The notes under the pieces were generated by a model. The model had not been told where the DNA came from and ran no database searches. It was given only the letters and a program-made list of their open reading frames with translations. Shown one piece after another: positions 1,779 to 31,321 of a DNA stretch of 31,321 nucleotides. How positions within the stretch are numbered: the stretch's first letter is position 1; each line of letters opens with the position of its first letter. A program made the translations under genes and the position numbers. Where the stretch lies: positions 1 through 31,321 of IMG/VR virus record IMGVR_UViG_3300006101_000929. One strand, 5' to 3'. This stretch comes from a virus.

Positions 1779-1787
1779 CCTGATAGA

Positions 1788-1816: not shown

Positions 1817-1845
1817 GGTACATAATCAAACAATCACGGAACAAC

Positions 1846-7854: not shown

Positions 7855-7872
7855 CTGCATGGGTTTTGACAC

Positions 7873-7899
7873 AAAGCCGCTTTCTCAGCGGCTTTTTGT
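7873..7899 (+). terminator. Rho-independent terminator
   Basis: AAAGCCGC (7873-7880) and GCGGCTTT (7888-7895) form a perfect 8-bp stem with a 7-nt loop (TTTCTCA). A T-rich tract (TTTTTGTTT) follows. It lies 18 nt after the glycosyltransferase stop. Confidence 0.9.
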
Positions 7900-7904
7900 T
7901 TGGC

Positions 7905-7912
7905 GGTAAATA
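7905..7912 (+). promoter_or_regulatory. Late-promoter-like motif (GGTAAATA)
   Basis: GGTAAATA lies between the terminator and the ATG at 7917, with only 4 nt (CTGT) before the ATG. The first two bases depart from TATAAATA. The position after a terminator supports a new transcription start, but the short spacing is odd. Confidence 0.4.
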
Positions 7913-7916
7913 CTGT

Positions 7917-14434: not shown

Positions 14435-14435
14435 T

Positions 14436-14987: not shown

Positions 14988-14991
14988 TGAT

Positions 14992-17115: not shown

Positions 17116-17750
17116 AACTGAGCGATTTCCAAATCAGCAATCATGACAAGCTAGACTCGATACTGGTTAGGTTATGCGAACTGGTCATGGACGGTCAAAA
17201 GAAAAATCCAGATCGTTACGGCATGGTAGCAGCCGCGGTACTAGATCCTGACAACAACTGTGTGGCCGCTTTGAATTATCAAACAGCTGATGGTGATGTG
17301 CATGGTGAACGTGCCGCCATAGATGCTTATCACGAACGCTTTGGTGAGATACCCGAAGGCAGTATCATCTTGACTACCTGTAGTCCGTGTACCGAGCCCA
17401 TGTCAGACCGCTATGGTTCTAGTTGCAAAGATCTAATCAGCTCGACCGCGGTGCACAAGGTCTATGCTGGTTATAGAGATCCCAGCCAACAGACGCATGG
17501 CGGTGACAAGACTTATCATTTGGAAATCACTCGTAACAAAAAGATACAACAACTGTGCCAGGCCTTTGCTGACACCTGGTTACGAAACGAACTGACCGAA
17601 CTTGAATTCTTGGGCAGCCCTTGCACTAAAGACTGTTCGGGTCACAGAGCCGGTTATGCCTGGAGCCAAAGCCGAGGTGGGCGTGTGGCACAGAGTCCAT
17701 TCAGCCCCAGCTTCAACAAAGGCAGCCAATTGCAGGTGGATGGCAAATGA
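17112..17750 (+). CDS. Zinc-dependent cytidine/deoxycytidylate deaminase-like protein with C-terminal tag
   Basis: This 212-residue protein has a CDA-fold catalytic core (about 15-140). It shows H64-G-E66, which replaces the usual H/C-A-E, and T-T-C90-S-P-C93, so one His, two Cys and a general-base Glu are in place. Cys105 is an additional cysteine. Such enzymes deaminate cytosine or related bases in nucleotides, nucleic acids or proteins. The sequence is not a clear match to T4 gp cd dCMP deaminase, so substrate is open. Residues about 168-212 add a separate module: S-P-C171-T-K-D-C175-S-G-H-R-A-G-Y, then S-P-F-S-P-S-F-N-K-G. The N terminus, M-K-L-S-D-F, loosely resembles the capsid-targeting-like peptides. 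It overlaps neighbours at both ends. Confidence 0.8.
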   Translation: MKLSDFQISNHDKLDSILVRLCELVMDGQKKNPDRYGMVAAAVLDPDNNCVAALNYQTADGDVHGERAAIDAYHERFGEIPEGSIILTTCSPCTEPMSDRYGSSCKDLISSTAVHKVYAGYRDPSQQTHGGDKTYHLEITRNKKIQQLCQAFADTWLRNELTELEFLGSPCTKDCSGHRAGYAWSQSRGGRVAQSPFSPSFNKGSQLQVDGK

Positions 17751-17836
17751 TCGACTATCCTTATCCGGTATACCCTGACCCTGATCCAGCATGTCCTGAG
17801 CAGGATCGTCTGAGACTTCCTTATGCACCTGTATAG
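17747..17836 (+). CDS. Possible 29-residue proline-rich peptide
   Basis: An ATG overlapping the deaminase stop (ATGA) opens a 29-codon frame rich in Pro, Asp and Tyr (M-I-D-Y-P-Y-P-V-Y-P-D-P-D-P). The coupled start and non-random composition support it, but it is short and has no recognised relatives. Confidence 0.35.
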   Translation: MIDYPYPVYPDPDPACPEQDRLRLPYAPV

Positions 17837-17917
17837 AATTTGGCCTTAGGACCGAATGGCCGGCAGCTGGCCTGGTTGACCGATTCGCTACCGGTTAACC
17901 TAAAAGCGGCACGATCA
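17837..17917 (+). other. Structured intergenic region upstream of the dsbA promoter
   Basis: This 81-nt stretch has no clear gene. GGTTGACCG (17874-17882) can pair with CGGTTAACC (17892-17900) to form a 9-bp stem (one G-T pair) with a 9-nt loop. Upstream, GGCC at 17858-17861 and 17869-17872 flanks GGCAGCT. No U tract follows, so it is not a standard terminator. It does not fold into a convincing tRNA cloverleaf by eye. Confidence 0.45.
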
Positions 17918-17946
17918 TTGACTGTGTGTGTTGTATCGTGTATAAT
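17918..17946 (+). promoter_or_regulatory. Near-consensus sigma70 promoter
   Basis: TTGACT (17918-17923), a 17-nt spacer and TATAAT (17941-17946). The -10 is perfect and the -35 matches five of six. An AGGAGAG ribosome-binding site (17960-17966) precedes the ATG at 17971. Confidence 0.85.
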
Positions 17947-17970
17947 TACATATTCAACCAGGAGAGCTCA

Positions 17971-18231
17971 ATGACAAGTCGTGTGTTTACCACAGAACAA
18001 ACTGCCAAACTAAACCAAATCATCAACGAAGGCATGCAGGTCACGCATGAAATCGAAACTTTGACCGAAGGTCTCAATGACACAGTCAAGGCCATAGCCG
18101 AAGAGCTGGAAATCAAACCAGCCATTCTCAAACGTGCTATCAAACTGGCACACAAGGCCGAGTTTGGCCGCGCACAGCAGGATCATGAAGTGCTGGAACA
18201 GATCTTGACCACGGTGGGCAAAACTCTCTAA
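17971..18231 (+). CDS. dsbA-like: DsbA-like small dsDNA-binding protein (T4-type)
   Basis: The start at 17971 is set by the promoter and AGGAGAG ribosome-binding site; an upstream in-frame ATG at 17926 would lie within the promoter. The 86-residue product is almost wholly helical: E-Q-T-A-K-L-N-Q-I-I-N-E-G, then I-E-T-L-T-E-G-L-N-D-T-V-K-A-I-A-E-E-L, then I-K-P-A-I-L-K-R-A-I-K-L-A-H-K. Size and pattern match the T4 DsbA family, a small dsDNA-binding protein linked to late transcription. The family call is by pattern. It is the first gene of the replication-side block and has its own strong promoter, so it is probably highly expressed early. Confidence 0.6.
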   Translation: MTSRVFTTEQTAKLNQIINEGMQVTHEIETLTEGLNDTVKAIAEELEIKPAILKRAIKLAHKAEFGRAQQDHEVLEQILTTVGKTL

Positions 18232-18236
18232 TCCAG

Positions 18237-18878
18237 ATGGAAGCGTTTAGACACCAGCATCTGGTCTATGTGCCCATCACCAAGCATGCCAGTACCAGTT
18301 ATCGACATCTGTTCCGAGATCAGTTGGGATGGCAACCCATGCAAACCGACGAAATTGATTGGACTGTAGATCATGTGTTTGGTCACCTGTTGCACCCGTA
18401 TACTCGGCATTTGCAAGGCATCACAGAATGTGTGCAGAAATACAATCTTGTACATCTGGTCGACGATGAATGTTTTTTAACCCTGTTGGGTACCGCAGTG
18501 TTTGATCTGCATTCATACCCGCTGTCGGCAGGATTTGGTGACAGTCTTTACAAAATTGACTGGATCCTGCTGGATCACCATATATACGACAGTGACTATA
18601 TCACACGGAATTTTTTACAACAGCACGGTATCATGATAGACACCATACCCAGGTTGAACACTGCTAGACCCAATGAAAAGGTATTGTTGGAAAAAATACA
18701 GACTGTCAGAGACAGCAAAGATCTTACCAACACGCTGACCTATTTTTACGAACAGGATGTGGTCTTGTATGATCGGGTGAATCGACACAGCAGATACCAT
18801 GAGCTTGAAAATTTGCCGTGGTCTGAATGCAGTTGGTTGACCAACTATGTACCAATCAAGGTCGAAGTTGATCTGTAA
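18237..18878 (+). CDS. Sulfotransferase-like protein
   Basis: This 213-residue protein begins near Y-V-P-I-T-K-H-A-S-T-S-Y-R, resembling the 5'-phosphosulfate-binding loop of sulfotransferases (P-K-x-G-S-T-S). H-L-L-H-P-Y-T-R-H-L-Q-G (about 50-61) resembles the R-D-P-x-x-R 3'-phosphate motif. Sulfotransferases move sulfate from PAPS to sugars or small molecules. The canonical Lys is placed as T-K-H and the first Arg of the second motif is His, so activity is uncertain. The gene ends with a 32-nt overlap into the next reading frame. With the next gene it forms an insert of possible glycan modifiers between dsbA and the polymerase. Confidence 0.5.
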   Translation: MEAFRHQHLVYVPITKHASTSYRHLFRDQLGWQPMQTDEIDWTVDHVFGHLLHPYTRHLQGITECVQKYNLVHLVDDECFLTLLGTAVFDLHSYPLSAGFGDSLYKIDWILLDHHIYDSDYITRNFLQQHGIMIDTIPRLNTARPNEKVLLEKIQTVRDSKDLTNTLTYFYEQDVVLYDRVNRHSRYHELENLPWSECSWLTNYVPIKVEVDL

Positions 18879-19827
18879 CATAGATCCTTACCTGGATCAA
18901 ATCTGGCAAAAAAGCCAGTGCAGAAAACATGAATGGGCGATTTTGGGTACCCTCGAAAATCTCGTGAACACTCTTCCTGATAAAAGCAACACATATATCT
19001 GTTTGGTTGATGCAGTGCCCGAAAATGTTATTGTAAACTATCGTACCATAATCACTGATAATATCTTGAAGACCGATTCGGTACAACTATGGCCAGAATT
19101 TTGGGGCACTTTCAGCTACGATCCAGAATATTCGGATCGTGCTCCACAAAAACTATTCAACTGTTTTATGCACCGGACCGGAGTCATGCGACAGACATGG
19201 TTCTACGAACTGATCCGACGAGAATTGTTGGATCTAGGATCAGTTTCATTCTTGTTAGATTATAGAGACAATGCTGGTTATACCAAAGGCTGGAGCACTG
19301 TAGAAGAAAAACAGGCTCTGTTCCAATGGATATTTGAAAAACTTGATGCAGAATTTCTGGCCGAGCACGAAAGCATACGATCGTTGGTACCTTATCGTAA
19401 TTTCCACACTGATCTTGACCAGGCCGTCGTAGATTCAAAAATAAGCCTGGTACTAGAGACCTATTACGACAACTCGATGGCCATTGCATTCAGTGAAAAG
19501 GTATTTAGGGCTTTACAATTGCCTCGTCCTATGTTACTATATAGTGGTGTTGGTGCCATCAACGAGTTACGGAAAATAGGATTTGATCTTTACGATGACA
19601 TAGTGGATCATGGCTACGACCTAATTGTGGACTCCAATCAAAGACAATTAGACATTTTATCCAGGCTAGAAAATTTTAAAAGTTTTAATTACACAGACAA
19701 CACTCTTCGAGATTTTGAACAACGAGCTAACAAAAACAGAAACATCTTGAAAAATTTAAAACAAAATTGGCCTCATAAGCTCGACAAAATTGTTGCCAGC
19801 CTCAGAGATCACAACAACGGAGAATAG
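18847..19827 (+). CDS. Putative glycosyltransferase, GT10-like C-terminal half
   Basis: The 326-residue protein starts at an ATG 32 nt inside the preceding gene; no better internal start precedes its conserved-looking part. The C-terminal half carries S-L-V-L-E-T-Y-Y-D-N-S-M-A-I-A-F-S-E-K-V-F-R-A-L, then P-M-L-L-Y-S-G-V-G-A-I-N-E-L-R-K-I-G-F-D. This pattern (conserved E-K, then a hydrophobic strand, then L-x-x-x-G-F) is seen in the nucleotide-sugar side of GT10 and related GT-B enzymes. The N-terminal half is not recognised. The last 150 nt are visibly AT-rich. It probably modifies a glycan; donor and acceptor are unknown. The TAG lies just before the polymerase start. Confidence 0.5.
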   Translation: MYQSRSKLICNIDPYLDQIWQKSQCRKHEWAILGTLENLVNTLPDKSNTYICLVDAVPENVIVNYRTIITDNILKTDSVQLWPEFWGTFSYDPEYSDRAPQKLFNCFMHRTGVMRQTWFYELIRRELLDLGSVSFLLDYRDNAGYTKGWSTVEEKQALFQWIFEKLDAEFLAEHESIRSLVPYRNFHTDLDQAVVDSKISLVLETYYDNSMAIAFSEKVFRALQLPRPMLLYSGVGAINELRKIGFDLYDDIVDHGYDLIVDSNQRQLDILSRLENFKSFNYTDNTLRDFEQRANKNRNILKNLKQNWPHKLDKIVASLRDHNNGE

Positions 19828-19828
19828 A

Positions 19829-20848
19829 TTGAGTTACATTGATGCACTCTACGATCGCGAACACGATCGCATACACATAGTCGAGCGTCGCGATGGCGCA
19901 AGACACTATCGCGAATATCCGGCCAACTATATCCTGTACTATGACGATGCCAGAGGAAAATTCCAAAGCATTTTTGGCACACCGGTGTCGAGATTCAGCA
20001 CCAGGAACAACAAAGAGTTCCGCAAAGAAGTAAAGTTGCAGTCGGGCAAACGCCTGTACGAAAGCGACATCAATCCCATATTCCGTTGCCTGGAAGAAAA
20101 CTACAAGGGACAAGATGCTCCCCGGCTCAACGTGGCCTTTTTTGACATCGAAGTGGACTTTGATCCCGAGCGTGGATTCAGTCCACCAGCAGATCCATTC
20201 AATCCAATCACGGCCATCTCGGTCTATCTGGGCTGGTTGGAACAGCTGGTGACTCTGGTCATACCTCCACGTCACATGAGTGAGGACACTGCACAAGAAA
20301 TAGCCAGTGAATTTGAAAACACCATCATATTCCGAGACGAAGCCGAAATGCTGAAAACCTTTCTGGATCTGATCGAAGATGCTGATGCACTGTCGGGCTG
20401 GAACAGTGAAGGGTTTGATATCCCGTACACAGTCAATCGAGTGACTCGTGTGCTCAGTCGAGACGATACCAGAAGGTTCTGTCTATGGGATCAGTATCCC
20501 AAGAAACGCACGTTTGAACGCTTTGGTGCCGAAAACGAGACCTATGACTTGATCGGTCGTGTACACATGGACTATATGCAACTGTATCGCAAGTACACCT
20601 ATGAAGAGCGACACAGCTACAGCCTAGACGCCATTGCCGAACATGAATTGGGTGAAACTAAAACAGTGTTCGAAGGTACCCTGGATCAACTGTACAATCA
20701 AAATTTCCGTATCTTTATCGAGTACAACAGACAGGATACCATGATCCTGGCCAAGCTGGATCGCAAACTGAAGTTTTTGGATCTGGCCAACATCCTGGCA
20801 CACGAAAACACAGTGTGCTACAGACCACCATGGGTGCGGTGGCCTTGA
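19829..20848 (+). CDS. 43 (N-terminal part): DNA polymerase family B, N-terminal exonuclease part (gp43-type)
   Basis: TTG 19829 is preferred: GGAG (19819-19822) lies 6 nt upstream and the product starts M-S-Y-I-D-A-L-Y. The frame itself is open from 19790. The 339-residue product has the three 3'-5' proofreading exonuclease motifs: D106-I-E108 (Exo I), N192...F-D197 (Exo II) and Y299...D303 (Exo III). The frame runs normally to H-E-N-T-V at about 20815. It then continues out of register for about 11 codons to TGA at 20848, whereas the conserved polymerase sequence goes on in the -1 frame. The rest is in the next entry. Together they would make a roughly 886-residue gp43, close to T4's 898. 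Confidence 0.92.
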   Translation: MSYIDALYDREHDRIHIVERRDGARHYREYPANYILYYDDARGKFQSIFGTPVSRFSTRNNKEFRKEVKLQSGKRLYESDINPIFRCLEENYKGQDAPRLNVAFFDIEVDFDPERGFSPPADPFNPITAISVYLGWLEQLVTLVIPPRHMSEDTAQEIASEFENTIIFRDEAEMLKTFLDLIEDADALSGWNSEGFDIPYTVNRVTRVLSRDDTRRFCLWDQYPKKRTFERFGAENETYDLIGRVHMDYMQLYRKYTYEERHSYSLDAIAEHELGETKTVFEGTLDQLYNQNFRIFIEYNRQDTMILAKLDRKLKFLDLANILAHENTVCYRPPWVRWP

Positions 20849-22488
20849 CCGAACAGGCCATCATCAACGAAGCACACGAGCGTGGCATGGTAGTGCCCAA
20901 TCGCAAAGAAAGATACAGCGACGAAGACACACAGGCCGCAGGTGCCTATGTGGCCTATCCCAAAAAAGGCATACACGAATATGTGGGCTCCATAGACATC
21001 AACAGTCTATATCCCAGCGCGATCCGAGCACTCAACATGGGTCCCGAAACCATCGTTGGGCAGTTGAGACCCATCATGACCGATCGTTATATTGCAGACA
21101 AGATCCGAAGCGGTAGCAGTTTTGCTGCTGCCTGGGAAGGACTGTTTGCCACATTGGAATATACCGCAGTCATGGAGATGCAGACTGGTACCGAAGTCAC
21201 AGTGGACTGGGAGGACGGCGATGAAACTGTGCATAGTGCAGCCGAAGTCTGGCGGATCATATTCGACAGCAACCGGCCCTGGATGCTGACAGCCAATGGC
21301 ACCATATTCACCTACGAACGCGAAGCCGTGATACCTGGCTTGCTCAAACGCTGGTATGCCGAGCGTAAAGACATGCAGAAAAAACTCAAAGAATGCGCCA
21401 ATCAAGATGACGAAGAATACTGGGACAAACGACAACTGGTCAAAAAGATCAATCTCAACAGCCTGTACGGTGCTATTCTCAATCCTGGTTGTAGGTTTTT
21501 TGACAAGCGTATCGGTCAAAGTACTACTCTCACAGGGCGCAGCATTGCCAAACATATGGACGCCTATGTGAACGAATGTATCACAGGCCGATACGATCAT
21601 GTGGGCGACGCCATCATCTACGGTGACACAGACTCGTGCTATTTTACAGCCTATCCGTTTCTCCGAGAAGATATCGAACAGGGTCGTATGACCTGGACCC
21701 GAGACCTGGCAGTACAGTTATACGATTCCATAGCCGAACAGGTCAACGACAGTTTTCCTGGTTTTATGGAAACTGCGTTCCATGTGCCCAGAGAGATGGG
21801 CACAGTGATACGTGGTGGTAGAGAAATCGTGGCATCAAAAGGTCTGTTCATCACCAAAAAACGCTATGCGGTCATGTACTACGACAAAGAAGGCCGGCGT
21901 GTGGACACCCACGGCAGTCCAGGCAAGGTCAAGGCCATGGGACTGGATCTCAAAAGATCCGACACACCTCGAGTGATCCAGGATTTCCTGAGCGAGATCC
22001 TGAACGATGTGCTGGTAGGTGCCACCCGCGAACAGATCGTGGAAAAGATCCGCGAGTTCAAATATGTGTTCCGCGATCGACCCGGATGGGAAAAAGGCAG
22101 TCCCAAGCGAGTCAACAACTTGACCAAGTACAGCAAAGAAGAAGAACGTCTGGGTCGGGCCAACATGCCTGGTCATGTGCGTGCGGCCTTGAACTGGAAT
22201 GCCTTGAGAAAGATGAACGGCGACCGATACAGCCTGCAGATCGTGGATGGCATGAAAACCATCGTGTGCAAGCTCAAGGACAATCCGTTGGGTTGGACAT
22301 CTATCGGCTATCCAACCGACGAATTGCACTTGCCCGAGTGGTTCCGAGAACTGCCATTCAATGATTCGGAGATGGAAGCCACCGTGGTCGATCAAAAGAT
22401 CGACAACCTGTTGAGTGTGTTGGACTGGGATCTGGCCAGTGCTACCAATACCGACAATACCTTTGAGACCTTGTTTTCATGGAACTAG
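20815..22488 (+). CDS. 43 (C-terminal part): DNA polymerase family B, palm/fingers/thumb part (gp43-type)
   Basis: This 557-residue frame holds all three polymerase motifs: motif A D61-I-N-S-L-Y-P-S, motif B K-I-N-L-N-S-L-Y-G (about 210-220) and motif C Y269-G-D-T-D-S274, with the two metal-binding aspartates. It starts at GTG 20815 or ATG 20830, overlapping the exonuclease frame by 34 nt. No good ribosome-binding site precedes either start. The junction reads ACA GTG TGC TAC in one frame and GTG CTA CAG in the other. Adding one C (GTG CTG CTA CAG) would restore V-L-L-Q-T-T-M in a single frame, so a one-base deletion or sequence error is likely. A true split gene or frameshift remains possible. 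Confidence 0.93.
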   Translation: MLQTTMGAVALTEQAIINEAHERGMVVPNRKERYSDEDTQAAGAYVAYPKKGIHEYVGSIDINSLYPSAIRALNMGPETIVGQLRPIMTDRYIADKIRSGSSFAAAWEGLFATLEYTAVMEMQTGTEVTVDWEDGDETVHSAAEVWRIIFDSNRPWMLTANGTIFTYEREAVIPGLLKRWYAERKDMQKKLKECANQDDEEYWDKRQLVKKINLNSLYGAILNPGCRFFDKRIGQSTTLTGRSIAKHMDAYVNECITGRYDHVGDAIIYGDTDSCYFTAYPFLREDIEQGRMTWTRDLAVQLYDSIAEQVNDSFPGFMETAFHVPREMGTVIRGGREIVASKGLFITKKRYAVMYYDKEGRRVDTHGSPGKVKAMGLDLKRSDTPRVIQDFLSEILNDVLVGATREQIVEKIREFKYVFRDRPGWEKGSPKRVNNLTKYSKEEERLGRANMPGHVRAALNWNALRKMNGDRYSLQIVDGMKTIVCKLKDNPLGWTSIGYPTDELHLPEWFRELPFNDSEMEATVVDQKIDNLLSVLDWDLASATNTDNTFETLFSWN

Positions 22489-23450
22489 ATTTTGTACAAC
22501 TGGTGGCTTACCACAATCTGCTAGAGCATCAATCGTGCATGAACATGCGAAAAACATTATCACCGGGTCTGGACCATATCTTGCATACCGTAGAAAGACA
22601 TGCTGACTTTGCCAGTTTGGCACTGATTGAAAAACAACAGCAGATACAGACTGCTTTTGATCAGTTTGAACAAGAGCTGGATCGTATCAAGTGGCAGGTA
22701 CGGGACAAGATTGCCCAGCAAGAAACAGTCTGGTACCAGCGTAGCTATCAACAGTATGAAGGTACCTTGCAGGATCGACTTTCACAACGTCCAGAATTTG
22801 TGCAGGAATATCGCAATCAACGCAGGTCAATCAGCGCAGAAATGGATCATGTGTTGCAGTCTCGTGTGATGCGATACGGTGATTGGCGTCATGCTGGCAT
22901 GATCATACATCCGGGATCCGAACAATTCCTGGATCACCTGGTCGGGCTAGATCCTCTGTATCTTGTAGACGAAAGCCTGTATCTGTTGGAACCGGTGTTG
23001 GCACAACACACCGAAGTCTATCAACGCCGACTGCGTACCTATACCATTGAAGAAAATCTTGACCGATCAATCTTGAGCCAAATACCCAATGATCAATTTG
23101 CTTTCTGCTTGGTCTACAACTACTTCGAATTCCGACCGGTAGACATGATACGTCGGTATTTGGACGAGATCTGGCACAAGCTCAAACCCGGCGGAATCTT
23201 GGCCATGACCTTCAACGATTGCGATCGAGTCAGTGCAGTACAGCTGGTAGATCGTAACTTTGCCTGTTACACTCCGGGTCGGGTCATACGAGATCTAGCA
23301 CAGTTGCAGGGCTACGAGATTGAGTTTGAATGGTCAGATGAAGGACCCACGACCTGGTTGGAACTGAAACGACCGGGGACCTTGACCAGCTTGCGTGGTG
23401 GCCAGACTTTGGCCAAAATAGTTCCGTATTCAGTTGAAAATTCTAAATAA
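22479..23450 (+). CDS. Class I methyltransferase-like protein with coiled-coil N terminus
   Basis: ATG 22479 overlaps the polymerase end by 10 nt. The 323-residue protein has a helical, probably coiled-coil region (about 45-125: I-E-K-Q-Q-Q-I-Q-T-A-F-D-Q-F-E and following). A Rossmann-like domain spans about 135-320. There, D-P-L-Y-L-V-D (158-164) may be the acidic end of strand 2, F-C-L-V-Y-N-Y (209-215) strand 4, and L-K-P-G-G-I-L-A-M-T-F (235-245) the familiar motif after strand 4 in SAM methyltransferases. The glycine-rich SAM loop is degenerate. Methylation substrate is unknown; a sugar or nucleic acid is possible. It closes the polymerase unit; its 3' end carries the promoter for the clamp operon. 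Confidence 0.6.
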   Translation: MELDFVQLVAYHNLLEHQSCMNMRKTLSPGLDHILHTVERHADFASLALIEKQQQIQTAFDQFEQELDRIKWQVRDKIAQQETVWYQRSYQQYEGTLQDRLSQRPEFVQEYRNQRRSISAEMDHVLQSRVMRYGDWRHAGMIIHPGSEQFLDHLVGLDPLYLVDESLYLLEPVLAQHTEVYQRRLRTYTIEENLDRSILSQIPNDQFAFCLVYNYFEFRPVDMIRRYLDEIWHKLKPGGILAMTFNDCDRVSAVQLVDRNFACYTPGRVIRDLAQLQGYEIEFEWSDEGPTTWLELKRPGTLTSLRGGQTLAKIVPYSVENSK

Positions 23451-23462
23451 ACCCTGTACAAT
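23434..23462 (+). promoter_or_regulatory. Sigma70-like promoter of the clamp operon
   Basis: TTGAAA (23434-23439), a 17-nt spacer and TACAAT (23457-23462). It overlaps the last codons of the methyltransferase-like gene. An AAGGAG ribosome-binding site (23471-23476) precedes the ATG at 23484. Confidence 0.8.
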
Positions 23463-23483
23463 ACATATTCAAGGAGAACGACA

Positions 23484-24206
23484 ATGAGAGATCACTTATT
23501 AGATTTGGTAGGACACACACATGACCTGGGTTGCATTGACCTGGTGCGTATCGCCGGCACAGCCGACAAGACCACGATCGAGGCCTTGGCCGAAGATCGC
23601 AGCGTGGTGTTGCAAGGTGAATATGCCACACCCGTGGCTGACTTCATGGGCACGTTTGGCATGCCCAATCTTGGCAAGCTCAAGATCATGCTGAACCTGC
23701 AAGAGTACAAAGAAAATGCTGTATTGACGCTGGGTAAAAATTCTGCAGGTGAGCCCGAGCATATCAGTTTCAAAAATGCCGCAGGTGATTTCAAGAACAA
23801 CTACAGATTCATGGCCGCCGCACATGTGAATGCCAAGCTCAAGACCATTGAATTCAAAGGTGTGCCCTGGGTGATCGAGTTTACACCCACGGTGGTGGCC
23901 ATACAGAGATTCAAGATGCAGGCGCAGGCCATGGCCGAGGAATTGAACTTTGATGTCAAGACCGAAGGCGGCGATTTGAAATTCTACTTTGGTGATCATT
24001 CGACCCATGCTGGCAATTTTGTGTTTGAATCCGGTGTGACTGGTGTTCTCAAAAGAACATGGTCATGGCCAATCAAGACCGTGATTTCAATTCTGGATTT
24101 GGCCGGAGACAAGACTTTCCGTATCAGTGACAGTGGTGCAGCCATGATAACTGTGGATTCAGGACTGGCTGTTTACAACTACATTTTGTTGGCACAAACC
24201 AAGTGA
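23484..24206 (+). CDS. 45: DNA polymerase sliding clamp (gp45-type)
   Basis: The 240-residue protein matches T4 gp45 in size (228) and architecture, a PCNA-like fold of two repeated domains that forms a trimeric ring and tethers polymerase to DNA. It also helps activate late transcription in T4. Recognisable segments include D-R-S-V-V-L-Q-G-E-Y near residues 39-48, P-V-A-D-F-M-G-T-F-G-M-P-N-L-G-K-L and the C-terminal G-V-L-K-R-T-W-S-W-P-I-K, F-R-I-S-D-S-G-A-A and V-Y-N-Y-I-L-L. It has a strong own promoter and ribosome-binding site and heads the operon down to about 27783. T4 clamp-loader genes 44 and 62 are not between it and gene 43 here. Confidence 0.93.
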   Translation: MRDHLLDLVGHTHDLGCIDLVRIAGTADKTTIEALAEDRSVVLQGEYATPVADFMGTFGMPNLGKLKIMLNLQEYKENAVLTLGKNSAGEPEHISFKNAAGDFKNNYRFMAAAHVNAKLKTIEFKGVPWVIEFTPTVVAIQRFKMQAQAMAEELNFDVKTEGGDLKFYFGDHSTHAGNFVFESGVTGVLKRTWSWPIKTVISILDLAGDKTFRISDSGAAMITVDSGLAVYNYILLAQTK

Positions 24207-25771
24207 TACAGGACGACCTAACTGCCAAGCAACACGACTACGCAGTATTCTTGCCGGCCATCTCGGGATTCTATGCCACGTTTGTGGGCAAGCAAAGAGA
24301 TCCGGTAAACGGTCCTTATGTGGATCCAGCTCGTATGCCTGTGGGCATACCGGACATGGAACAGATGAACTGGTTGAACGACCAGAAAGCCCTGTTCCCC
24401 TACAAGTGGTCGTTATACTCGGGTGGTCATGCCAACTTGGATTTGAACAAGCAGGACTGGAGCGAAGACATGGTTCGCAATCGAGATCCCAATACCTTGT
24501 TGTTGGGAGACTCGGGCGGATTCCAGATTGCCAAAGGCTTGTGGGAAGGTGACTGGCGTGCCGGTTCTGGTTGTAAAAAAGCCGAAGCCAAGCGACGAGC
24601 GGTGTTGACCTGGCTGGACAGCGTCAGCAACTACTGTATGACCTTGGATATTCCGACCTGGGTCATACACGACAAGAAAGCATCAGACGCTTGCCAGATA
24701 CGCAACTTGCAAGAAGCCATTGACGCTACCAAGTTCAACAACGAATATTTCATGCGGCATCGCCGAGGCAAGGCCAATGGTGGTACCAAGATTTTGAATG
24801 TGTTGCAGGGCGACAATCATCCCAATGCCGACGACTGGTACGAGATCATGAAAGAATACTGTGATCCCATCAAATATCCCGACACACACTTTGATGGCTG
24901 GGCCATGGGCGGACAGAACATGTGTGATGTACATCTGATCCTGCGCAGATTGGTGGCCTTGAGACATGATGGCCTGTTACAGGAAGGTGTACATGATTGG
25001 ATGCACTTCTTGGGCACTAGCAAACTGGAATGGGCAGTGTTGTTGACCGACATACAACGAGCAGTAAGAAAATATGTGAATCCGGCATTTACCATCAGTT
25101 TTGATTGCGCCAGCCCGTTCTTGGCCACGGCCAATGGACAGGTATATCATCATATCGATCTGCCGCACGAAGGCAAATGGTGTTACAGAATGAGTCCAAT
25201 CGTGGATGACAAAAAATACAGCAACGACACCAGGCCGTTTGGTCCTGCTGTGGTAGCTGATGGCCTGATCAAGCACTTTGACGAAAGCCCGATCAGTCAG
25301 CAGTTGACCATGAAAGACGTGTGTATCTATGCACCGGGTGATCTCAACAAGATTGGCAAGGAAGGCAAGACGTCGTGGGACAGTTTCAGTTATGCGTTGT
25401 TGATGGGTCACAATGTGTGGATGCACATCGAAGCAGTACAACGTGCCAATCGCGAATACGATGCCGGAAATTATCCCTACATGATGCGGAACGAAAATGG
25501 CGGAAACGAAATGTTCCGCGATATCGTGGAAGCCATATTTGCCACACCAGACCGAGCCGAAGCCGAGGCCATAATCGAGTACTACGATCGTTACTGGATG
25601 GACATAATCGGTACCAGAGGATTCAAAGGCAAGAAGGCCAAGAGTGGACGTCCGTTGTTCAATCAACTGTTTACAGTGACCGACTCTGAGTCGGTTGACA
25701 CCGCAACAGATGACAGTGTACAATTAGATACAGCACTATTGGATCAACTGGAACAGGAACCAATCACATGA
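24203..25771 (+). CDS. dpdA-like: TGT-superfamily protein, DpdA-like DNA 7-deazaguanine transglycosylase
   Basis: GTG 24203 overlaps the clamp TGA (GTGA). The 522-residue protein has tRNA-guanine-transglycosylase motifs in order: G-D103-S-G-G-F-Q108 (general-base Asp in TGT), L-Q-G-D-N (201-205, TGT has V-Q-G-G), G-W-A-M-G-G (232-237, base-recognition loop) and S-F-D301-C with A-T-A-N-G (TGT has M-F-D-C-V-L-P-T-R-x-A-R-N-G; this Asp is the nucleophile). The C-terminal zinc motif C-x-C-x-x-C of TGT is missing. Members such as DpdA exchange guanine in DNA for a 7-deazaguanine, protecting phage DNA from restriction. Context with clamp, polymerase and a QueD-like gene supports DNA rather than tRNA. 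Acidic tail at the C terminus. Confidence 0.75.
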   Translation: MIQDDLTAKQHDYAVFLPAISGFYATFVGKQRDPVNGPYVDPARMPVGIPDMEQMNWLNDQKALFPYKWSLYSGGHANLDLNKQDWSEDMVRNRDPNTLLLGDSGGFQIAKGLWEGDWRAGSGCKKAEAKRRAVLTWLDSVSNYCMTLDIPTWVIHDKKASDACQIRNLQEAIDATKFNNEYFMRHRRGKANGGTKILNVLQGDNHPNADDWYEIMKEYCDPIKYPDTHFDGWAMGGQNMCDVHLILRRLVALRHDGLLQEGVHDWMHFLGTSKLEWAVLLTDIQRAVRKYVNPAFTISFDCASPFLATANGQVYHHIDLPHEGKWCYRMSPIVDDKKYSNDTRPFGPAVVADGLIKHFDESPISQQLTMKDVCIYAPGDLNKIGKEGKTSWDSFSYALLMGHNVWMHIEAVQRANREYDAGNYPYMMRNENGGNEMFRDIVEAIFATPDRAEAEAIIEYYDRYWMDIIGTRGFKGKKAKSGRPLFNQLFTVTDSESVDTATDDSVQLDTALLDQLEQEPIT

Positions 25772-25965
25772 GCGATTACACAAATAGACTACGACATCTA
25801 GAAGAAGCACATCACACTTTGGACAAACGCATCGACGGCATGGAACGTACCGGCATTTTTGGTGATTTCAATCTAGAAGACATGAAAAAACAACGCCTGC
25901 TGTTGCGAGACCAGATTGTTGCCCTTAAACAACAACACCAGATCGACGACAAAAAACATGGATAG
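25768..25965 (+). CDS. DUF465/SlyX-like small coiled-coil protein
   Basis: The ATG overlaps the DpdA-like stop (ATGA). The 65-residue product is helical and charged: R-L-R-H-L-E-E-A-H-H-T-L-D-K-R-I, then L-E-D-M-K-K-Q-R-L-L-L-R-D-Q-I. This is the hairpin pattern of DUF465 (short two-helix protein, L-K-K-x-R-L-x-L-K-D-x-I). Function of the family is unknown. Its place in the operon suggests an accessory subunit, but this is only context. The next gene starts 8 nt before its stop. Confidence 0.65.
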   Translation: MSDYTNRLRHLEEAHHTLDKRIDGMERTGIFGDFNLEDMKKQRLLLRDQIVALKQQHQIDDKKHG

Positions 25966-26473
25966 ACCTGGACACAACAACATAAGTTTTTTTGTCGGAA
26001 CCGAAGTAGAACACACACCGGCCCATGGACACAAGACCTTGTTTGTGGTGGGCACGCAAGACCCAGATGTCATATCAAAACGGTGTCGAGAAAACTGGTG
26101 TGAACACATCTACTTTGGAGCCAATCAAAGTTTTCCAAATCCTGCTGTCGGTGACACCACAGCTTGGCAGGCCTGGGAAAGCATGATTGTGCCGTGTTTG
26201 CAAGCAGGATACTTGTGTACCCTGGATATAGATGTGAGTGCAGTGGCAGGCCTGACCCAAGGGTGTTTGGTCGAATACCATAACTTCATACCCATGATCT
26301 CGGTCAAGATACCGCATATACAACAGTTGGGCTACCATGCCACAATCAAGATTGACGACACCGACTTTGCCAAAAGCAACCCCGGAGTTTGGTGTCATAG
26401 TTTGCATGATTTAAGGACTAGAAAACAATTTACTCCGTGGGCGGCTTATACCAAAGACAAGGTGATCACATGA
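25958..26473 (+). CDS. Unknown protein, 171 aa
   Basis: ATG 25958 lies in the coupled position, overlapping the preceding gene by 8 nt; the longer frame from 25916 is not needed. The protein reads as a compact alpha/beta domain: I-S-F-F-V-G-T-E-V-E-H-T-P-A-H-G, L-F-V-V-G-T-Q-D, then H-I-Y-F-G-A-N-Q-S-F-P, L-C-T-L-D-I-D-V, F-I-P-M-I-S-V-K-I-P and I-K-I-D-D-T-D-F, ending P-G-V-W-C-H-S-L-H-D. It has the look of a conserved T4-like marine phage protein. Strand-rich with His and Cys at possible active-site positions (H-T-P-A-H-G; W-C-H-S). No reaction is proposed. Confidence 0.75.
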   Translation: MDRPGHNNISFFVGTEVEHTPAHGHKTLFVVGTQDPDVISKRCRENWCEHIYFGANQSFPNPAVGDTTAWQAWESMIVPCLQAGYLCTLDIDVSAVAGLTQGCLVEYHNFIPMISVKIPHIQQLGYHATIKIDDTDFAKSNPGVWCHSLHDLRTRKQFTPWAAYTKDKVIT

Positions 26474-26802
26474 AATCAGAACAACCAGCTACCGGCATAT
26501 TGAAAAATCGAGACTGGGGCGATGCCGTGACCTACAAAGTGGTCTGCGAATGCGGGCAACCCGATCATGAACATGATGTCTGGATCGAAGCCTCTGAGAC
26601 CGGAGTGGAAGTGCATGTGTATTTGACTGTCAAGACCAATTTCTGGAGTCGCACACGTTGGTCGCACATGTGGCAGTTGCTCACACAAGGCCATGTCCGC
26701 GCTGAAACCACGATTGGTATGAATCAACAGCAGGCCCAGAACTATGCCTCTGCCTTGCATCATGCAGTAGAAGATGTGACACGATTAAGGCAAGCACCAT
26801 GA
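26470..26802 (+). CDS. Unknown protein with N-terminal C-x-C motif, 110 aa
   Basis: ATG 26470 overlaps the previous TGA (ATGA) and is preferred to the upstream GTG at 26437. Residues 20-35 include V-V-C-E-C-G-Q-P-D-H-E-H-D-V-W-I, so a C-x-C and H-x-H pair could bind a metal. A strand pair V-E-V-H-V-Y-L-T-V-K and a helix W-S-H-M-W-Q-L-L-T follow, and it ends with a Q-Q-A-Q-N-Y-A-S-A-L helix. Family unknown. It continues the coupled operon; ATG of the next gene overlaps the stop. Confidence 0.75.
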   Translation: MKSEQPATGILKNRDWGDAVTYKVVCECGQPDHEHDVWIEASETGVEVHVYLTVKTNFWSRTRWSHMWQLLTQGHVRAETTIGMNQQQAQNYASALHHAVEDVTRLRQAP

Positions 26803-27074
26803 TCAAACGATTATTGCGACGCCTGATCAACTGGGCCCAAGACCTGGATCACTGCAATGCCTTGTCCGTATCATCCTGTAGACCCGACATCGAAATGCCC
26901 AGTCCGGTCAGATTCAAAATACAACAGGCCACAGGTGGAACTATCGTTGAAATTGCCCATTATGATAGCAAACGAGACGAAAGTCGTGTAAACTTACATA
27001 TTATACCCGATTCAGAATCTGACATGCCTCAAGCGATCGCTCAAATTATAACCATTGAATTATTGAAAGCCTAA
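26799..27074 (+). CDS. Unknown small protein, 91 aa
   Basis: ATG 26799 overlaps the preceding TGA. The protein starts with a basic amphipathic helix (M-I-K-R-L-L-R-R-L-I-N-W-A-Q), then a domain with V-R-F-K-I-Q-Q-A-T-G-G-T-I-V-E-I-A-H-Y-D, V-N-L-H-I-I-P-D and a C-terminal helix I-A-Q-I-I-T-I-E-L-L-K-A. Probably a small alpha/beta phage protein. Function not known. Confidence 0.7.
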   Translation: MIKRLLRRLINWAQDLDHCNALSVSSCRPDIEMPSPVRFKIQQATGGTIVEIAHYDSKRDESRVNLHIIPDSESDMPQAIAQIITIELLKA

Positions 27075-27075
27075 C

Positions 27076-27540
27076 ATGATATCAAGTCAAAGAGAAACTG
27101 CGGAACGCATCAGCCGAGCAGCTACCAGAAAAATCTGGGTACGTTTCCAAAAAGAAGGCATACACCGTTATCCGGCTGCCGCGACTGATCCACTATTGGC
27201 CACCGGAGACGAGTATGATGTTTCGTTCCTGGCCAGCCCACATCGTCATATCTTCCATTTTAGAGTGTGGATTGATGTGTTCCATAACGATCGAGACATC
27301 GAGTTTATACAGTTCAAACGCTGGCTCGAGAACCTTTACAGTGGAACCGGTCCCTATAATGAAGGTCGAGTTTTAGAATTAAATTACAAATCTTGTGAGA
27401 TGATGGCCGATGACTTATATATACAGATAGCAGATCGCTATCCGTATCGTGCTGTATGGATCGAAGTGGCCGAAGATGGCGAGAATGGTTGCTTGATCCA
27501 GTATGAACTTGCTCGCCCTAGCCTATCAATCGACATTTAA
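27076..27540 (+). CDS. QueD/PTPS-like T-fold protein (tentative)
   Basis: The 154-residue protein begins one base after the previous stop. Its layout matches 6-pyruvoyl-tetrahydropterin synthase/QueD. H30 lies in G-I-H-R-Y-P near the N terminus. S-P-H56-R-H58-I-F-H-F-R-V-W-I-D-V occupies the place of H-G-H-x-Y-x-V-x-V, and D-I-E-F-I-Q-F-K-R-W-L the place of M-V-x-D-F-x-x-L-K. S-C-E108-M-M-A-D-D-L-Y then A-V-W-I-E-V-A-E-D lines up with T-x-E-N-L-A and V-x-V-x-E-T. The three-His zinc site may thus be preserved. QueD makes carboxytetrahydropterin, a 7-deazaguanine precursor. The catalytic Cys and the H of the charge relay are not clear, so it could be a diverged relative. It fits with the DpdA-like gene upstream. 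Confidence 0.5.
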   Translation: MISSQRETAERISRAATRKIWVRFQKEGIHRYPAAATDPLLATGDEYDVSFLASPHRHIFHFRVWIDVFHNDRDIEFIQFKRWLENLYSGTGPYNEGRVLELNYKSCEMMADDLYIQIADRYPYRAVWIEVAEDGENGCLIQYELARPSLSIDI

Positions 27541-27552
27541 CAAGGAACCTAG

Positions 27553-27783
27553 ATGGGACGCCCACAATACCAGACCAATGCACGGGCCATGGCCGCTTGG
27601 AACGACCTGGATCGATTTAGAAATTTCTGCGTGGAATATGGTTATAGATTCCGTGAAGAAGACCTTTACAACTTTAAAACCTATGCCTGGCAACAGTACA
27701 ACAAATGGGCGCAAGGCAAGAATGCCAAAAACATGTGGGAAGAAGATACCCGCAGATTCTCAGGATACCGATACAGTAGATGA
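27553..27783 (+). CDS. Unknown small aromatic protein, 76 aa
   Basis: AAGGAACCTAG upstream supports ATG 27553. The protein is rich in Trp, Tyr, Phe and Arg: A-W-N-D-L-D-R-F-R-N-F-C-V-E-Y-G-Y-R-F, then D-L-Y-N-F-K-T-Y-A-W-Q-Q-Y and K-N-M-W-E-E-D. It looks like a compact helical domain and resembles small conserved proteins of T4-like marine phages. It closes the clamp operon, with its stop overlapping the next ATG. Confidence 0.75.
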   Translation: MGRPQYQTNARAMAAWNDLDRFRNFCVEYGYRFREEDLYNFKTYAWQQYNKWAQGKNAKNMWEEDTRRFSGYRYSR

Positions 27784-28646
27784 TCAATATATTTTTCGTT
27801 CCAGGAATGTTTGGATCAACCATCGAATACGTATTAAGATCTTTTACCAAAGAATACACACCCGTCACATGCAGTATCGATGATGATGGATCCATGCACT
27901 CGTTCAAGAAACAATTTCATCCACTCTCATTAGATGACCTGGGCAACTCTGTTTACTCGGACATTACCACTCCAATATATCCATTCAAAAAAGGTCACCT
28001 TCCTGAAATTATTGAGTTATTTCAAAAACAGGTTATGGACAAAAAATCTGTATTGATATATGCTGATTCATTACAATCAGCCGAACTCAACATGCTGTTT
28101 CAGTATTATAAAATTGCAAATGGATCAAGATTAAAACTCGGTCTGGATATATTCTGCGGGGACAATGCCCAAAACATTATAAATTGGAATAAAAAATACC
28201 GACACTGGAGCGATATGCAATATTGGGAGCTTCGTGAATGGATCAGTCTGTTTTACCCACAGTGGGTACAGGAATGGATAATGTCTCAACATCAGGTACC
28301 CAACGGATTTTTAAAGATATCAAATACAGATCTATTATATAATACCAAGGACCGCTTGATTGATATTGTAAATTTTACCAAACTAACCATTAGCAAACAG
28401 CTTGATGATTTTGTGACCAAATGGCAACAGAAGCAACAATATATTGTGTCGGAATTTGATACGTTAGATCAGATCATGTCCAACACGTTGTCTCAAAAAG
28501 ATTTTTCCTGGTGCCCGTTGTGTATCATTGGCGAAGCTATCATACAACAACGCTTACGGGCTGAAAAATTCGAGATCAGGTGCGATGGGCTCAACACCTT
28601 TCCAACAGACGCCAAAACACTTTACTCTCTGCTAGAAAAATGTTAA
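27780..28646 (+). CDS. Unknown AT-rich protein, possibly P-loop/sulfotransferase-like
   Basis: ATG 27780 overlaps the previous TGA (ATGA). The 288-residue protein begins M-I-N-I-F-F-V-P-G-M-F-G-S-T-I-E-Y, where the G-x-x-G-S-T-I after a hydrophobic strand resembles a sulfotransferase phosphate loop, though no Lys is present. A mid-region W-E-L-R-E-W-I-S-L-F-Y-P-Q-W and a later L-D-D-F-V-T-K-W-Q-Q-K-Q-Q segment look helical. A C-terminal C-P-L-C pair may matter. Its DNA is visibly more AT-rich than both neighbours, with many TTA, ATA and AAA codons, suggesting separate acquisition. It begins the glycan block, so a carbohydrate-modifying role is possible but unproven. Confidence 0.7.
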   Translation: MINIFFVPGMFGSTIEYVLRSFTKEYTPVTCSIDDDGSMHSFKKQFHPLSLDDLGNSVYSDITTPIYPFKKGHLPEIIELFQKQVMDKKSVLIYADSLQSAELNMLFQYYKIANGSRLKLGLDIFCGDNAQNIINWNKKYRHWSDMQYWELREWISLFYPQWVQEWIMSQHQVPNGFLKISNTDLLYNTKDRLIDIVNFTKLTISKQLDDFVTKWQQKQQYIVSEFDTLDQIMSNTLSQKDFSWCPLCIIGEAIIQQRLRAEKFEIRCDGLNTFPTDAKTLYSLLEKC

Positions 28647-28671
28647 ACTGATAAAACTATAGGAAATACAT

Positions 28672-29865
28672 ATGAGAAAACTATTTTATTGCGGACTTGA
28701 ATCGTATGAATCAAGATACACTTTACAACTGACTGAATGGAATCGACGTGTGTTTGATCGCCGCGGCCTAGACGTGATCTATGTTCCAGGTCAAACTATT
28801 GACAATACTGGTGCCATCAGCGTGGGGCAGGTGTTGGACGCACATGGTCGCAGTTATTTTAGCATGAGTCAGATGATGAATCTGGTGCAGATGATGCGAA
28901 ATGGGGAAGTCACTGGCGATGATGTGGTCTACTTTGAAGACATGTTCCAGCCTGGAATCGAAAGTCTGCCCTACATCATGAATCAAATTGATCCCAGCAT
29001 GCGACCAAAAGTGTTTGTGCGTTGTTTGGCACAGAGCATAGATCCCGATGATTTTGTGCATGTGTGGGGCATGGCCGGTTGGATGGGACAATATGAACAC
29101 ATGGTGAACAGTTTTGTCACTGGCGTGCTGGCCAGCAACGAAGAGATGGTAGCCCACATGCGGATCGCTGGCTGGACTGCTCCGATCTACAACATAAGTG
29201 GACTGGCATTTGGCAAAAGCGAAGTGCTTGAGCGCATAGGTGGCTCGCAAAATATCCGACCATTTGATCAACGTACTCGCAGGGTGTCTTTTGCGGCACG
29301 CTGGGATCAAGAAAAACAGCCCGGCTTCTTCATGGATCTGGCCCAGCAACGTCAGGGGCAAGGCATTGAATTTGCTGTCATGCAAGGTGGGCCGTTGCGC
29401 AGCAACAATCCTGACTACGTGACCCGTGCTCGTGAACTGGAAGCCAATGGTTGCCTGACCATATATGAGAATCTAAAGAAAAATGATTACTATGCTTTGC
29501 TTAATGATACCCGTGTGCTATTTAACTGTGCTTTACAGGACTGGGTCAGCAACACCGTGTCAGAAGCAGACACGCTTGGATCGAATGTGTTATATCCTGC
29601 TTATCGTAGTTTCCCTGAAACTTTTGCAAATGACGCTGACCGGTTGTATGTTCCTTGGAGCCTGGCAGATGCCAGTGCCAAACTGGATAGACTGTTGCAA
29701 CAACCGCACCCGAATCAAGGCTTGATCAGTGACTGGACTGATGGCACTGTGGATCGTGTGGTGGACATCCTGAGCAACAACGGTCTAGAATGGTTCAGAA
29801 GCGGACCTGCATATCGTTCATATGCCAATGAGGCCAAGTATAAATTGAACAAGGCACAGCCATGA
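28672..29865 (+). CDS. GT-B glycosyltransferase-like protein
   Basis: The 397-residue protein starts at ATG 28672 after AGGAAA. It has a two-domain GT-B layout. The N-terminal half contains L-F-Y-C-G-L-E-S-Y, D-V-V-Y-F-E-D-M-F and V-F-V-R-C-L-A-Q-S. The C-terminal half starts at R-R-V-S-F-A-A-R-W-D-Q-E-K-Q-P-G-F-F (about 202-219), the usual G-R-x-x-x-x-K-x-x-x-x-L position of GT4 enzymes. It continues to V-S-N-T-V-S-E-A-D-T-L-G-S-N-V-L (about 297-312), which parallels the E-x-x-x-x-x-x-E nucleotide-sugar region. It probably builds a glycan on virion or host. It overlaps the epimerase gene by ATGA. Confidence 0.7.
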   Translation: MRKLFYCGLESYESRYTLQLTEWNRRVFDRRGLDVIYVPGQTIDNTGAISVGQVLDAHGRSYFSMSQMMNLVQMMRNGEVTGDDVVYFEDMFQPGIESLPYIMNQIDPSMRPKVFVRCLAQSIDPDDFVHVWGMAGWMGQYEHMVNSFVTGVLASNEEMVAHMRIAGWTAPIYNISGLAFGKSEVLERIGGSQNIRPFDQRTRRVSFAARWDQEKQPGFFMDLAQQRQGQGIEFAVMQGGPLRSNNPDYVTRARELEANGCLTIYENLKKNDYYALLNDTRVLFNCALQDWVSNTVSEADTLGSNVLYPAYRSFPETFANDADRLYVPWSLADASAKLDRLLQQPHPNQGLISDWTDGTVDRVVDILSNNGLEWFRSGPAYRSYANEAKYKLNKAQP

Positions 29866-30812
29866 AAATAGCAGTTACCGGGGCCGCCGGCTATATTGGT
29901 GGCCAGACCTTGCTGGATTTGATTGATGCCGGGCATGAAGTGCTGGCCATCGACCATCGTTTACCGCCTAGCCATCTGCTGCCGACACCCAGGACCTGGT
30001 GGCATACCGGTGATTATGCGACTGAATTGGCCTTTACTGCACTGCATCGGTTTGCACCTGAGGCCATCATACACTGTGCCGGTACCAGCTTGGTTGGGCC
30101 CAGCATGACCGACCCAGCTGTATACTACGAAAACAATTTTGTGAAAACCAAACGGCTTCTGGATTTCTTGATCGTGAATGGCATGACTCCAAGAATCATA
30201 TTCAGTTCGAGTGCATCAGTATATGGCAATCCGGTCATGACTCCATGCCAGGAATGCGATCCTGCGGAACCAATCAGTCCGTACGGACAAAGCAAGCTCA
30301 TGACCGAATGGCTGTTGCAAAGCTATAACACAGCATACGGTGTGGACTATGTGGCGTTCCGTTACTTCAATGCGTGTGGAGCAGACAGTCAAGCCAGGCA
30401 TGGACAGGAACCAGGTGCCACACATATCATAGCTCGAGTGTTGGAGGCCATGCGTGATCAAAACAATTTTGTGCTGAATGGCACGGATTTTGAAACAGCA
30501 GATGGAACCTGTGTGCGAGATTATGTGCATGTGCATGATTTGGTCCATGCGCATATCTTGGCTGTAGATTCCAAAGTGCCCGTTGGCATTTACAATCTGG
30601 GTACCAGTACTGGCCATAGCAATTTGGAAATCATACAAGGTGCCATTGCTGTGACCAAAAAAGATTTTGTTTACCAGTCTGGCCATAAGAGACCCGGTGA
30701 TCCGGCCATGCTCACAGCCGATGCTGGCCAGTTCCAAAAGGTCAGCGGCTGGCAACCCAGACATGATCTAGACGCGATTTTATCACATGCCTGGGCCTGG
30801 TACACCCGATGA
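29862..30812 (+). CDS. galE-like: NAD-dependent nucleotide-sugar epimerase (GalE-like SDR)
   Basis: This 316-residue extended short-chain dehydrogenase has the NAD-binding G7-A-A-G-Y-I-G13 loop and S-S-S-A-S-V-Y-G (115-122). The catalytic pair is Y141-x-x-x-K145 in Y-G-Q-S-K. R-Y-F-N-A-C-G-A, R-D-Y-V-H-V-H-D and Y-N-L-G-T-S-T-G-H-S all match UDP-glucose/galactose 4-epimerase family positions. It should invert C4 of a UDP-hexose or a related sugar; exact substrate cannot be told. It is slightly shorter than bacterial GalE (about 338). ATGA overlaps join it to the glycosyltransferase and the aminotransferase, making a nucleotide-sugar pathway unit. Confidence 0.9.
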   Translation: MKIAVTGAAGYIGGQTLLDLIDAGHEVLAIDHRLPPSHLLPTPRTWWHTGDYATELAFTALHRFAPEAIIHCAGTSLVGPSMTDPAVYYENNFVKTKRLLDFLIVNGMTPRIIFSSSASVYGNPVMTPCQECDPAEPISPYGQSKLMTEWLLQSYNTAYGVDYVAFRYFNACGADSQARHGQEPGATHIIARVLEAMRDQNNFVLNGTDFETADGTCVRDYVHVHDLVHAHILAVDSKVPVGIYNLGTSTGHSNLEIIQGAIAVTKKDFVYQSGHKRPGDPAMLTADAGQFQKVSGWQPRHDLDAILSHAWAWYTR

Positions 30813-31321
30813 GTTTTCAAGCCTTGTTTGATTTTGAAACAGCCCTAGCTGATTATACCGGCGCACCTTATGTGGTTGCGACCACAGGTTGTACCCAGGC
30901 CTTGGAACTGTGTTTGAGATACGAACATGTGACTGCCTGTGAGCTCACGGCCTTTACCTATATCAGCATACCGCAACTGTTGCGACAGCTGGGCATCAGT
31001 TATAGATTCCGTACCGAATATTGGATCGGTGAATATCAGTTGCGTGGTACCAGAATCTGGGACAGCGCCAGACTGTTACGACCTGGCATGTACAGGCCCG
31101 GACAGTTGCAATGTGTCAGTTTCGGTCATGCAAAGCCTTTACAGATAGGCCGTGTGGGTGCTATACTGTTAGATCGCAAGGCAGAATATGAAATGTTTAG
31201 TTGCATGAGATCGGATGGTAGAGACCTGCGCATTGAACCCTGGCAACGTCAGGAGACTTTTGCAGAAGGATATCACTACTGTCCAACCCTGGAAGATTGT
31301 GAGCGAGGCCTACAGTTGTTG
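30809..31321 (+). CDS. DegT/DnrJ/EryC1-type sugar aminotransferase, 5' part
   Basis: The frame opens at ATG 30809 in an ATGA overlap and stays open for 171 codons to the window end, so the gene is truncated by the window. The N-terminal part reads F-E-T-A-L-A-D-Y-T-G-A-P-Y-V-V-A-T-T-G-C-T-Q-A-L. This is the DegT hallmark (helix, then A/T-T-x-x-T-x-A-L, binding PLP phosphate). S-F-G-H-A-K109-P-L in the position S-F-x-x-x-K gives the PLP Schiff-base lysine. Family members use PLP to aminate 3- or 4-keto nucleotide sugars. Spacing between the PLP motif and Lys (about 85 residues) is short for the family, so it may be a reduced version. It probably works with the epimerase. Confidence 0.75.
   Translation, partial: MSFQALFDFETALADYTGAPYVVATTGCTQALELCLRYEHVTACELTAFTYISIPQLLRQLGISYRFRTEYWIGEYQLRGTRIWDSARLLRPGMYRPGQLQCVSFGHAKPLQIGRVGAILLDRKAEYEMFSCMRSDGRDLRIEPWQRQETFAEGYHYCPTLEDCERGLQLL

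Follow-up and report, generated by a model that had tools for sequence, protein, structure and literature searches.

A probable QueC-independent, DpdA-like transglycosylase cassette for 7-deazaguanine DNA modification in the replication operon of a large phage

What is the function of a protein with the motifs of a tRNA-guanine transglycosylase (TGT) inside the replication operon of a phage? The question is raised by IMG/VR virus record IMGVR_UViG_3300006101_000929, a virus fragment of 31,321 bases (here called the window), in which the open reading frame (ORF) of a TGT-like protein directly follows a probable sliding clamp gene, its GTG start overlapping the clamp stop codon, and is itself followed by a cassette of genes on the same strand (Table 1). 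An initial annotation had proposed that this protein and a QueD-like protein encoded further along place 7-deazaguanines in phage DNA, and that coupling to the clamp and polymerase would bring the base exchange to the fork. The present analysis makes it probable that the cassette is a QueC-independent, DpdA-like DNA-guanine transglycosylase system of a large Caudoviricetes phage, involved in 7-deazaguanine DNA modification. Strong support for a TGT-fold enzyme of such a pathway in this operon comes from the predicted structure of the TGT-like protein, its profile links to DpdA2, and the folE, queD and queE neighbours found in relatives; the two further elements of the initial proposal, the identity of the QueD-like protein and the need for a supply by the host, had to be revised.

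The transglycosylase-fold protein and its kinship with DpdA

The TGT-like protein contains the motifs DSGGFQ (residues 103–108), SFDC (299–302) and ANG (310–312). It has no match in Pfam, PHROG, NCBIfam or PADLOC in single-sequence scans, nor in the PDB by phmmer, and the PF01702 profile finds no match anywhere in the window. Relatives are present in at least 599 IMG/VR stretches, and more distant homologs in PA5oct/Paride-type phages, Vibrio phage 2.275.O, Phosso, and bacterial and metagenome-assembled genome (MAG) contigs. The ORF is not a chance one, since its frame is kept in hundreds of homologs and its model has the TGT fold. This AlphaFold2 model, built on a 38-sequence alignment, reached a predicted local distance difference test score (pLDDT) of 85.5 and a predicted template modelling score of 0.85. 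The best nine matches in a Foldseek search of the PDB were all TGTs (E 5.2e-7 to 1.4e-5), followed by a far weaker xylanase (2.1e-3); VIA-align gave a Z of 19.6, a root-mean-square deviation of 4.5 Å and 307 aligned residues, and all 50 entries listed were TGTs. The comparison could have favoured another barrel family, but the TIM-barrel fold of the model is the one specific to TGT.

Across 38 diverse members of the family, D103, S104–Q108, H268 and D301 show no variation, and D149 and H403 almost none. In alignment with E. coli Tgt the DSGGFQ, QG and FDGxAxGG motifs match, and D301 is by motif the equivalent of the Tgt nucleophile. The zinc site of canonical tRNA TGT (CxCxxC...H) is absent from this family, and the lack of CxCxxC remarked on initially extends from the window protein to all 80 close homologs. 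The zinc motif is kept only in outgroups, namely the distant member L140 (CDCPVC), which has a weak PF01702 match, and the relative encoded by PhiXhv-15 (CTCPIC), which makes a loss of the site within this branch probable. The protein shares fold and catalytic aspartates with bacterial Tgt (PF01702) but differs from it in the missing zinc site, in the missing Pfam match and in a gene context of replication and DNA modification. The structural model strongly supports its placement as a divergent member of the TGT superfamily.

Profile comparison with the DpdA families and bacterial TGT gave a divided answer. By hhalign, the family matched KVP40 DpdA2 at 95.4% and a four-member DpdA2 group at 96.4%, over about 190 residues, and the proteins of ACP17 and PhiXhv-15 at 96.0% and 98.1%; the match to E. 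coli Tgt was weak (70.8%), and with DpdA1 of Enterobacteria phage 9g (0.2%) there was no detectable profile similarity. DpdA2 was defined by Hutinet et al. (2019) in phage nt-1, the DNA of which contains dPreQ0, dADG and dG+ (PMC6884629). In the Vibrio phages KVP40 and nt-1 it is likewise a TGT-related phage DNA-guanine transglycosylase, encoded near folE, queF and queC, and has in common with the window family the motifs DSGG(F/L)Q, IS(F/Y)D and H(F/M)LG. On the other hand, the two differ in motif detail (ISFDxASPF against ISYDSTTH), and a sequence search with one query does not connect them: KVP40 DpdA2 retrieved two near-identical loci only, and the PhiXhv-15 protein none. A comparison with phi38:2 and CP220, made with DpdA3 in view, gave no match, which shows little. 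In X1, ACP17 and BUCT-ZZ01, DpdA2-type genes replace the TGT-like gene within gene sets that are otherwise alike. The gene order polymerase, clamp, dpdA, folE and queD recurs in phage 9g, for which the same chemistry is proposed; its DpdA1 holds the same genomic place though unrelated-looking in profile, and, unlike window-type phages, 9g reaches archaeosine via Gat-QueC (PMC6884629).

Deazaguanine synthesis genes and the QueD-fold paralog

The window, being only a 31 kb fragment, contains no folE, queE or queC, as the initial annotation had stated in arguing that the host or other genes would have to help. A contig (L002) that is 99.994% identical to the window over positions 14204–31321 extends 3.4 kb beyond it and carries folE, encoding GTP cyclohydrolase I (PF01227, 4.8e-38), at window-equivalent positions of about 31374–32156, some 50 bp past the edge. 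Counts of loci given here and below were drawn from 134 homolog loci of the TGT-like gene, smaller denominators being those with enough downstream sequence. A folE gene is present in 44 of 47 loci and queD in 26 of 43, true queD in relatives lying 7–11 kb downstream of the TGT-like gene. Among 14 whole relatives, 13 carry a PF01242 queD, the L002 contig stopping short of that point, and 12 a queE relative. By contrast, the search beyond the window found queC to be absent from nine of ten IMG/VR relatives and partial in the other, and queF to be absent from all 12 virus records searched, with a sole match in a whole bacterial MAG. An outside supply is accordingly not called for in the case of folE or, judging from relatives, queE, and the gene that is missing is queC. 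Vibrio phage 2.275.O carries, in the 6 kb after its TGT-like gene, queF, a gene for a YhhQ-like transporter, queC, a GATase-like gene and folE. The genetic link to deazaguanine genes by which a DpdA is recognised is present in this family, with folE adjacent and queD and queE downstream in relatives. In the QueE proteins of L206-L214 and L081:14460-15332 a long stretch is inserted between cluster cysteines two and three, their pattern being GCxxxC, tens of residues and then GCD[ST] in place of CxxxCxxC.

The QueD-like gene is the fifth after the TGT-like gene, on the same strand and with tight or overlapping junctions, in agreement with the coupled operon first described. Its product matches its PHROG, which is without assigned function, at 1.3e-33. 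Its profile scored 16% against E. coli-type QueD along the whole protein and 86% against a phage QueD group in the C-terminal part only, and hhalign found no match to FolE or QueF. Since the QueD scores are weak or partial, the T-fold call rests on the AlphaFold2 model (pLDDT 89.8), which has the order beta-beta-alpha-alpha-beta-beta. The best 14 Foldseek matches are all PTPS/QueD, and VIA-align to PTPS/QueD gave Z of 11.4 and 10.0. The three zinc histidines are conserved, H30, H56 and H58 aligning with H16, H31 and H33 of E. coli QueD. Like QueD (6-carboxytetrahydropterin synthase), the protein has the T-fold, these histidines and the substrate-binding Glu; unlike QueD, it has an invariant Leu at the position of Cys27 and lacks the Asp-His (DHHxLN) segment, and a separate, real QueD occurs in the same phages. 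The QueD-like call was thus right as to fold and zinc histidines and wrong as to enzyme.

This paralog occurs in 79 of 79 loci, on top of true queD where the latter is visible. All 11 cultured phages examined that carry the paralog are without full-length queC (X1 and D479 have only partial matches), whereas 2.275.O, PhiXhv-15, KVP40 and 9g are without the paralog and carry queC at E < 1e-50, and phi38:2 shows the same pattern by annotation; these phages form a non-random sample, and the counts are without phylogenetic correction. KVP40 carries queF as well, in contrast to window-type phages. The loss of catalytic residues, the separate queD and the alternation with queC together indicate that the paralog is not QueD. 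The alternation suggests that the pathway has a branch which does without QueC, and the paralog is probably a second pathway enzyme, which takes 7-carboxy-7-deazaguanine (CDG), the product of QueE, onward without QueC. Cui et al., in Nucleic Acids Research (NAR) in 2023, reportedly described dDG and dCDG in phages and named a proposed CDG decarboxylase DpdL. This enzyme would fit the place of the paralog after QueE in phages without queC, its identity with the paralog being a lead only.

Sugar genes, proposed pathway and alternative readings

The initial annotation passed over the glycosyltransferase (GT) and sugar genes at 28672–31321. The GT is present in all 72 loci, the epimerase in all 62, and the DegT-like gene, the window tail of which is identical to L002, in 58 of 64 folE-bearing loci. 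PF00534 is matched by eight of 19 aligned members of the GT family (best 8e-12), the window GT itself being below the Pfam cut-off. R210, E214–K215 and E298 are invariant, matches to GTs in the PDB are weak, and hhalign joins the window GT to the Paride/bacterial, X1, ACP17 and Phosso forms at 96.7–98.5%. Genes of this superfamily adjoin or are close to the transglycosylase and the T-fold gene in Paride, X1, ACP17 and BUCT-ZZ01, and to the T-fold gene in Phosso. In eight bacterial loci (L112, L117, L130, L131, L133, L134, L135 and L137) the TGT-like gene occurs with a GT of this superfamily and with a PF02592 (YhhQ-type) transporter; YhhQ is a preQ0 transporter (PMC6884629), and these loci therefore tie the TGT-like gene independently to both deazaguanine and glycosylation. 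Most of the eight also carry an integrase and a 585-amino-acid partner without a Pfam match, and an integrase-like gene lies near the TGT-like gene in 18 bacterial loci. The bacterial loci may be mobile modification or defence islands.

In the proposed pathway, CDG would be made by FolE, QueD and QueE, whose genes lie shortly after the window end in this phage or in relatives, and in the absence of QueC it would be processed by the QueD-fold paralog in a probably zinc-dependent reaction, e.g. decarboxylation. The TGT-fold enzyme would then exchange guanine in replicated DNA of the phage for the product of this step; by analogy with TGT, Asp301 would serve as the nucleophile and Asp103 as the general acid/base. 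A sugar would probably be attached to the inserted base, or to a derivative of it, by the GT-B enzyme together with the products of the sugar genes, and the effect would be to shield phage DNA from host restriction. The scheme is built on observed folds, conserved residues, gene linkage and the alternation of queC with the T-fold gene; that DNA is the substrate, which base is involved, what the T-fold enzyme does, what the sugar is for and how the two aspartates act are inferences. The sugar step resembles that of the T4 alpha- and beta-glucosyltransferases, which likewise place sugars on a modified base in phage DNA (PMC13216743); those act on hydroxymethylcytosine, whereas the base pathway linked to the window GT is that of deazaguanine. 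No glycosylated deazaguanine in DNA was found in the literature searched, to which Cui et al. 2023 did not belong.

Several points weigh against the pathway as a whole. In this exact phage it is visible only up to folE, because L002 extends for no more than 3.4 kb beyond the window, and similarity to any DpdA of known activity is remote, at 95% for DpdA2 and 0.2% for 9g DpdA1. Moreover, a decarboxylated base would have no substituent at C7, so that the GT would need another acceptor; without a further step, the roles proposed for the T-fold and GT proteins clash. A glycosylated 7-deazaguanine in the DNA of the phage and, separately, of the bacterial islands, consisting of a CDG-derived base and a GT-B sugar fed by the epimerase and DegT-like enzymes, is put forward tentatively. 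A comparable degree of doubt attaches to a plain dCDG or dDG DNA, with the GT and sugar genes at work on a different acceptor, for instance a glycan of the virion or of a surface. The presence of folE, queD and queE without queC or queF does predict a base at the CDG level, and the T-fold gene has no GT nearby in the phiST, RHph_I1_18, Bakedbeans, Ahp1 and D479 loci; yet the GT is constant in the window-type loci, and it stands beside the transglycosylase or T-fold gene in Paride, Phosso, X1, ACP17, BUCT-ZZ01 and the bacterial islands, where the phage cassette is lacking.

The transglycosylase itself could act elsewhere. As a phage tRNA-guanine transglycosylase it would insert queuosine precursors into host or phage tRNA and so tune translation, and its fold and catalytic motifs are the same as those of tRNA TGT. 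This is improbable in view of the canonical zinc site missing from 80 of 80 close homologs, of the queF missing from the 12 virus records searched, of its profile relatives, the phage DpdA2 proteins, which are reported to put deazaguanines in DNA (PMC6884629), and of its place between polymerase and clamp genes and cassette, matched by the polymerase-clamp-dpdA-folE order of 9g. The strong divergence of the protein, which no curated family recognises, would also suit a base-removing or inactive relative outside the exchange pathway, e.g. a DNA glycosylase-like regulator. That both catalytic aspartates are invariant, and that DpdA2-type genes occupy the same place in the X1, ACP17 and BUCT-ZZ01 gene sets, makes such a role very unlikely, and DNA-guanine exchange is the function preferred here.

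Neighbouring genes and significance

The cassette is embedded in a conserved replication context: ahead of the TGT-like gene, 131 of 134 loci have the gene for the polymerase part and all 134 the clamp gene. The clamp label derives from homology with a protein annotated as ‘sliding clamp beta’ in Sinorhizobium phage Phosso. The family B polymerase of the window is formed by two overlapping ORFs; that of Paride is also split in two, with a homing endonuclease between them. The conserved gene after the TGT-like gene likely encodes a partner of the system not recognised so far; Acidovorax phage ACP17 has a homolog of it flanked by folE and the DpdA2-type gene, and in Paride the homolog is some 30 kb away from the TGT-like gene. 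The orphan gene upstream of the GT is AT-richer, is missing from the near-identical L003 and has no match in phage records; as it is not conserved, it was kept out of the mechanism. Elsewhere, the window encodes a 1246-amino-acid protein with nucleotidyltransferase and amidoligase signatures (7866–11606) and a ClpA/ClpB-like phage AAA protein with a Clp_N domain (1753–4104); an amidoligase-like gene also adjoins the TGT-like gene in Vibrio phage 2.275.O.

Table 1. Features of the polymerase, clamp and modification region of the window.
Positions	Strand	Feature	Evidence
19790..20848	+	Family B DNA polymerase, exonuclease part (own ORF)	PF03104 1.6e-21
20815..22488	+	Family B DNA polymerase, polymerase part	PF00136 7e-38
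23484..24206	+	Probable sliding clamp	hhalign 100% to Phosso protein
24203..25771	+	TGT-fold protein, proposed DNA-guanine transglycosylase (DpdA-like)	522 amino acids; AlphaFold2 model and invariant D103, D301
25768..25965	+	Small DUF465 protein, optional	PF04325 2e-12; 29/134 loci
25958..26473	+	Protein without assigned function, conserved partner right after TGT-like gene	126/134 loci
27076..27540	+	QueD/PTPS-type T-fold paralog; proposed CDG-processing enzyme, not QueD	PHROG 17812
27780..28646	+	Orphan protein, inserted in this lineage	9/134 loci
28672..29865	+	GT-B glycosyltransferase (GT4-like)	Family PF00534 matches and hhalign links
29862..30812	+	NAD-dependent nucleotide-sugar epimerase/dehydratase	PF01370 7e-50
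30809..31321	+	DegT/DnrJ/EryC1-like sugar aminotransferase fragment, cut by window end	PF01041 7.7e-11 on L002:16607-17182

The transglycosylase family is so far unannotated, the window protein having been missed by four family libraries, and a probable major DNA-modification system of environmental large phages has in this way been invisible to annotation in at least 599 IMG/VR stretches. The cultured members PA5oct and Paride, which infect Pseudomonas aeruginosa, make the system directly testable. If a sugar is indeed added to the base, the cassette would represent DNA hypermodification of a new class and, with it, a new route past restriction and other defences.

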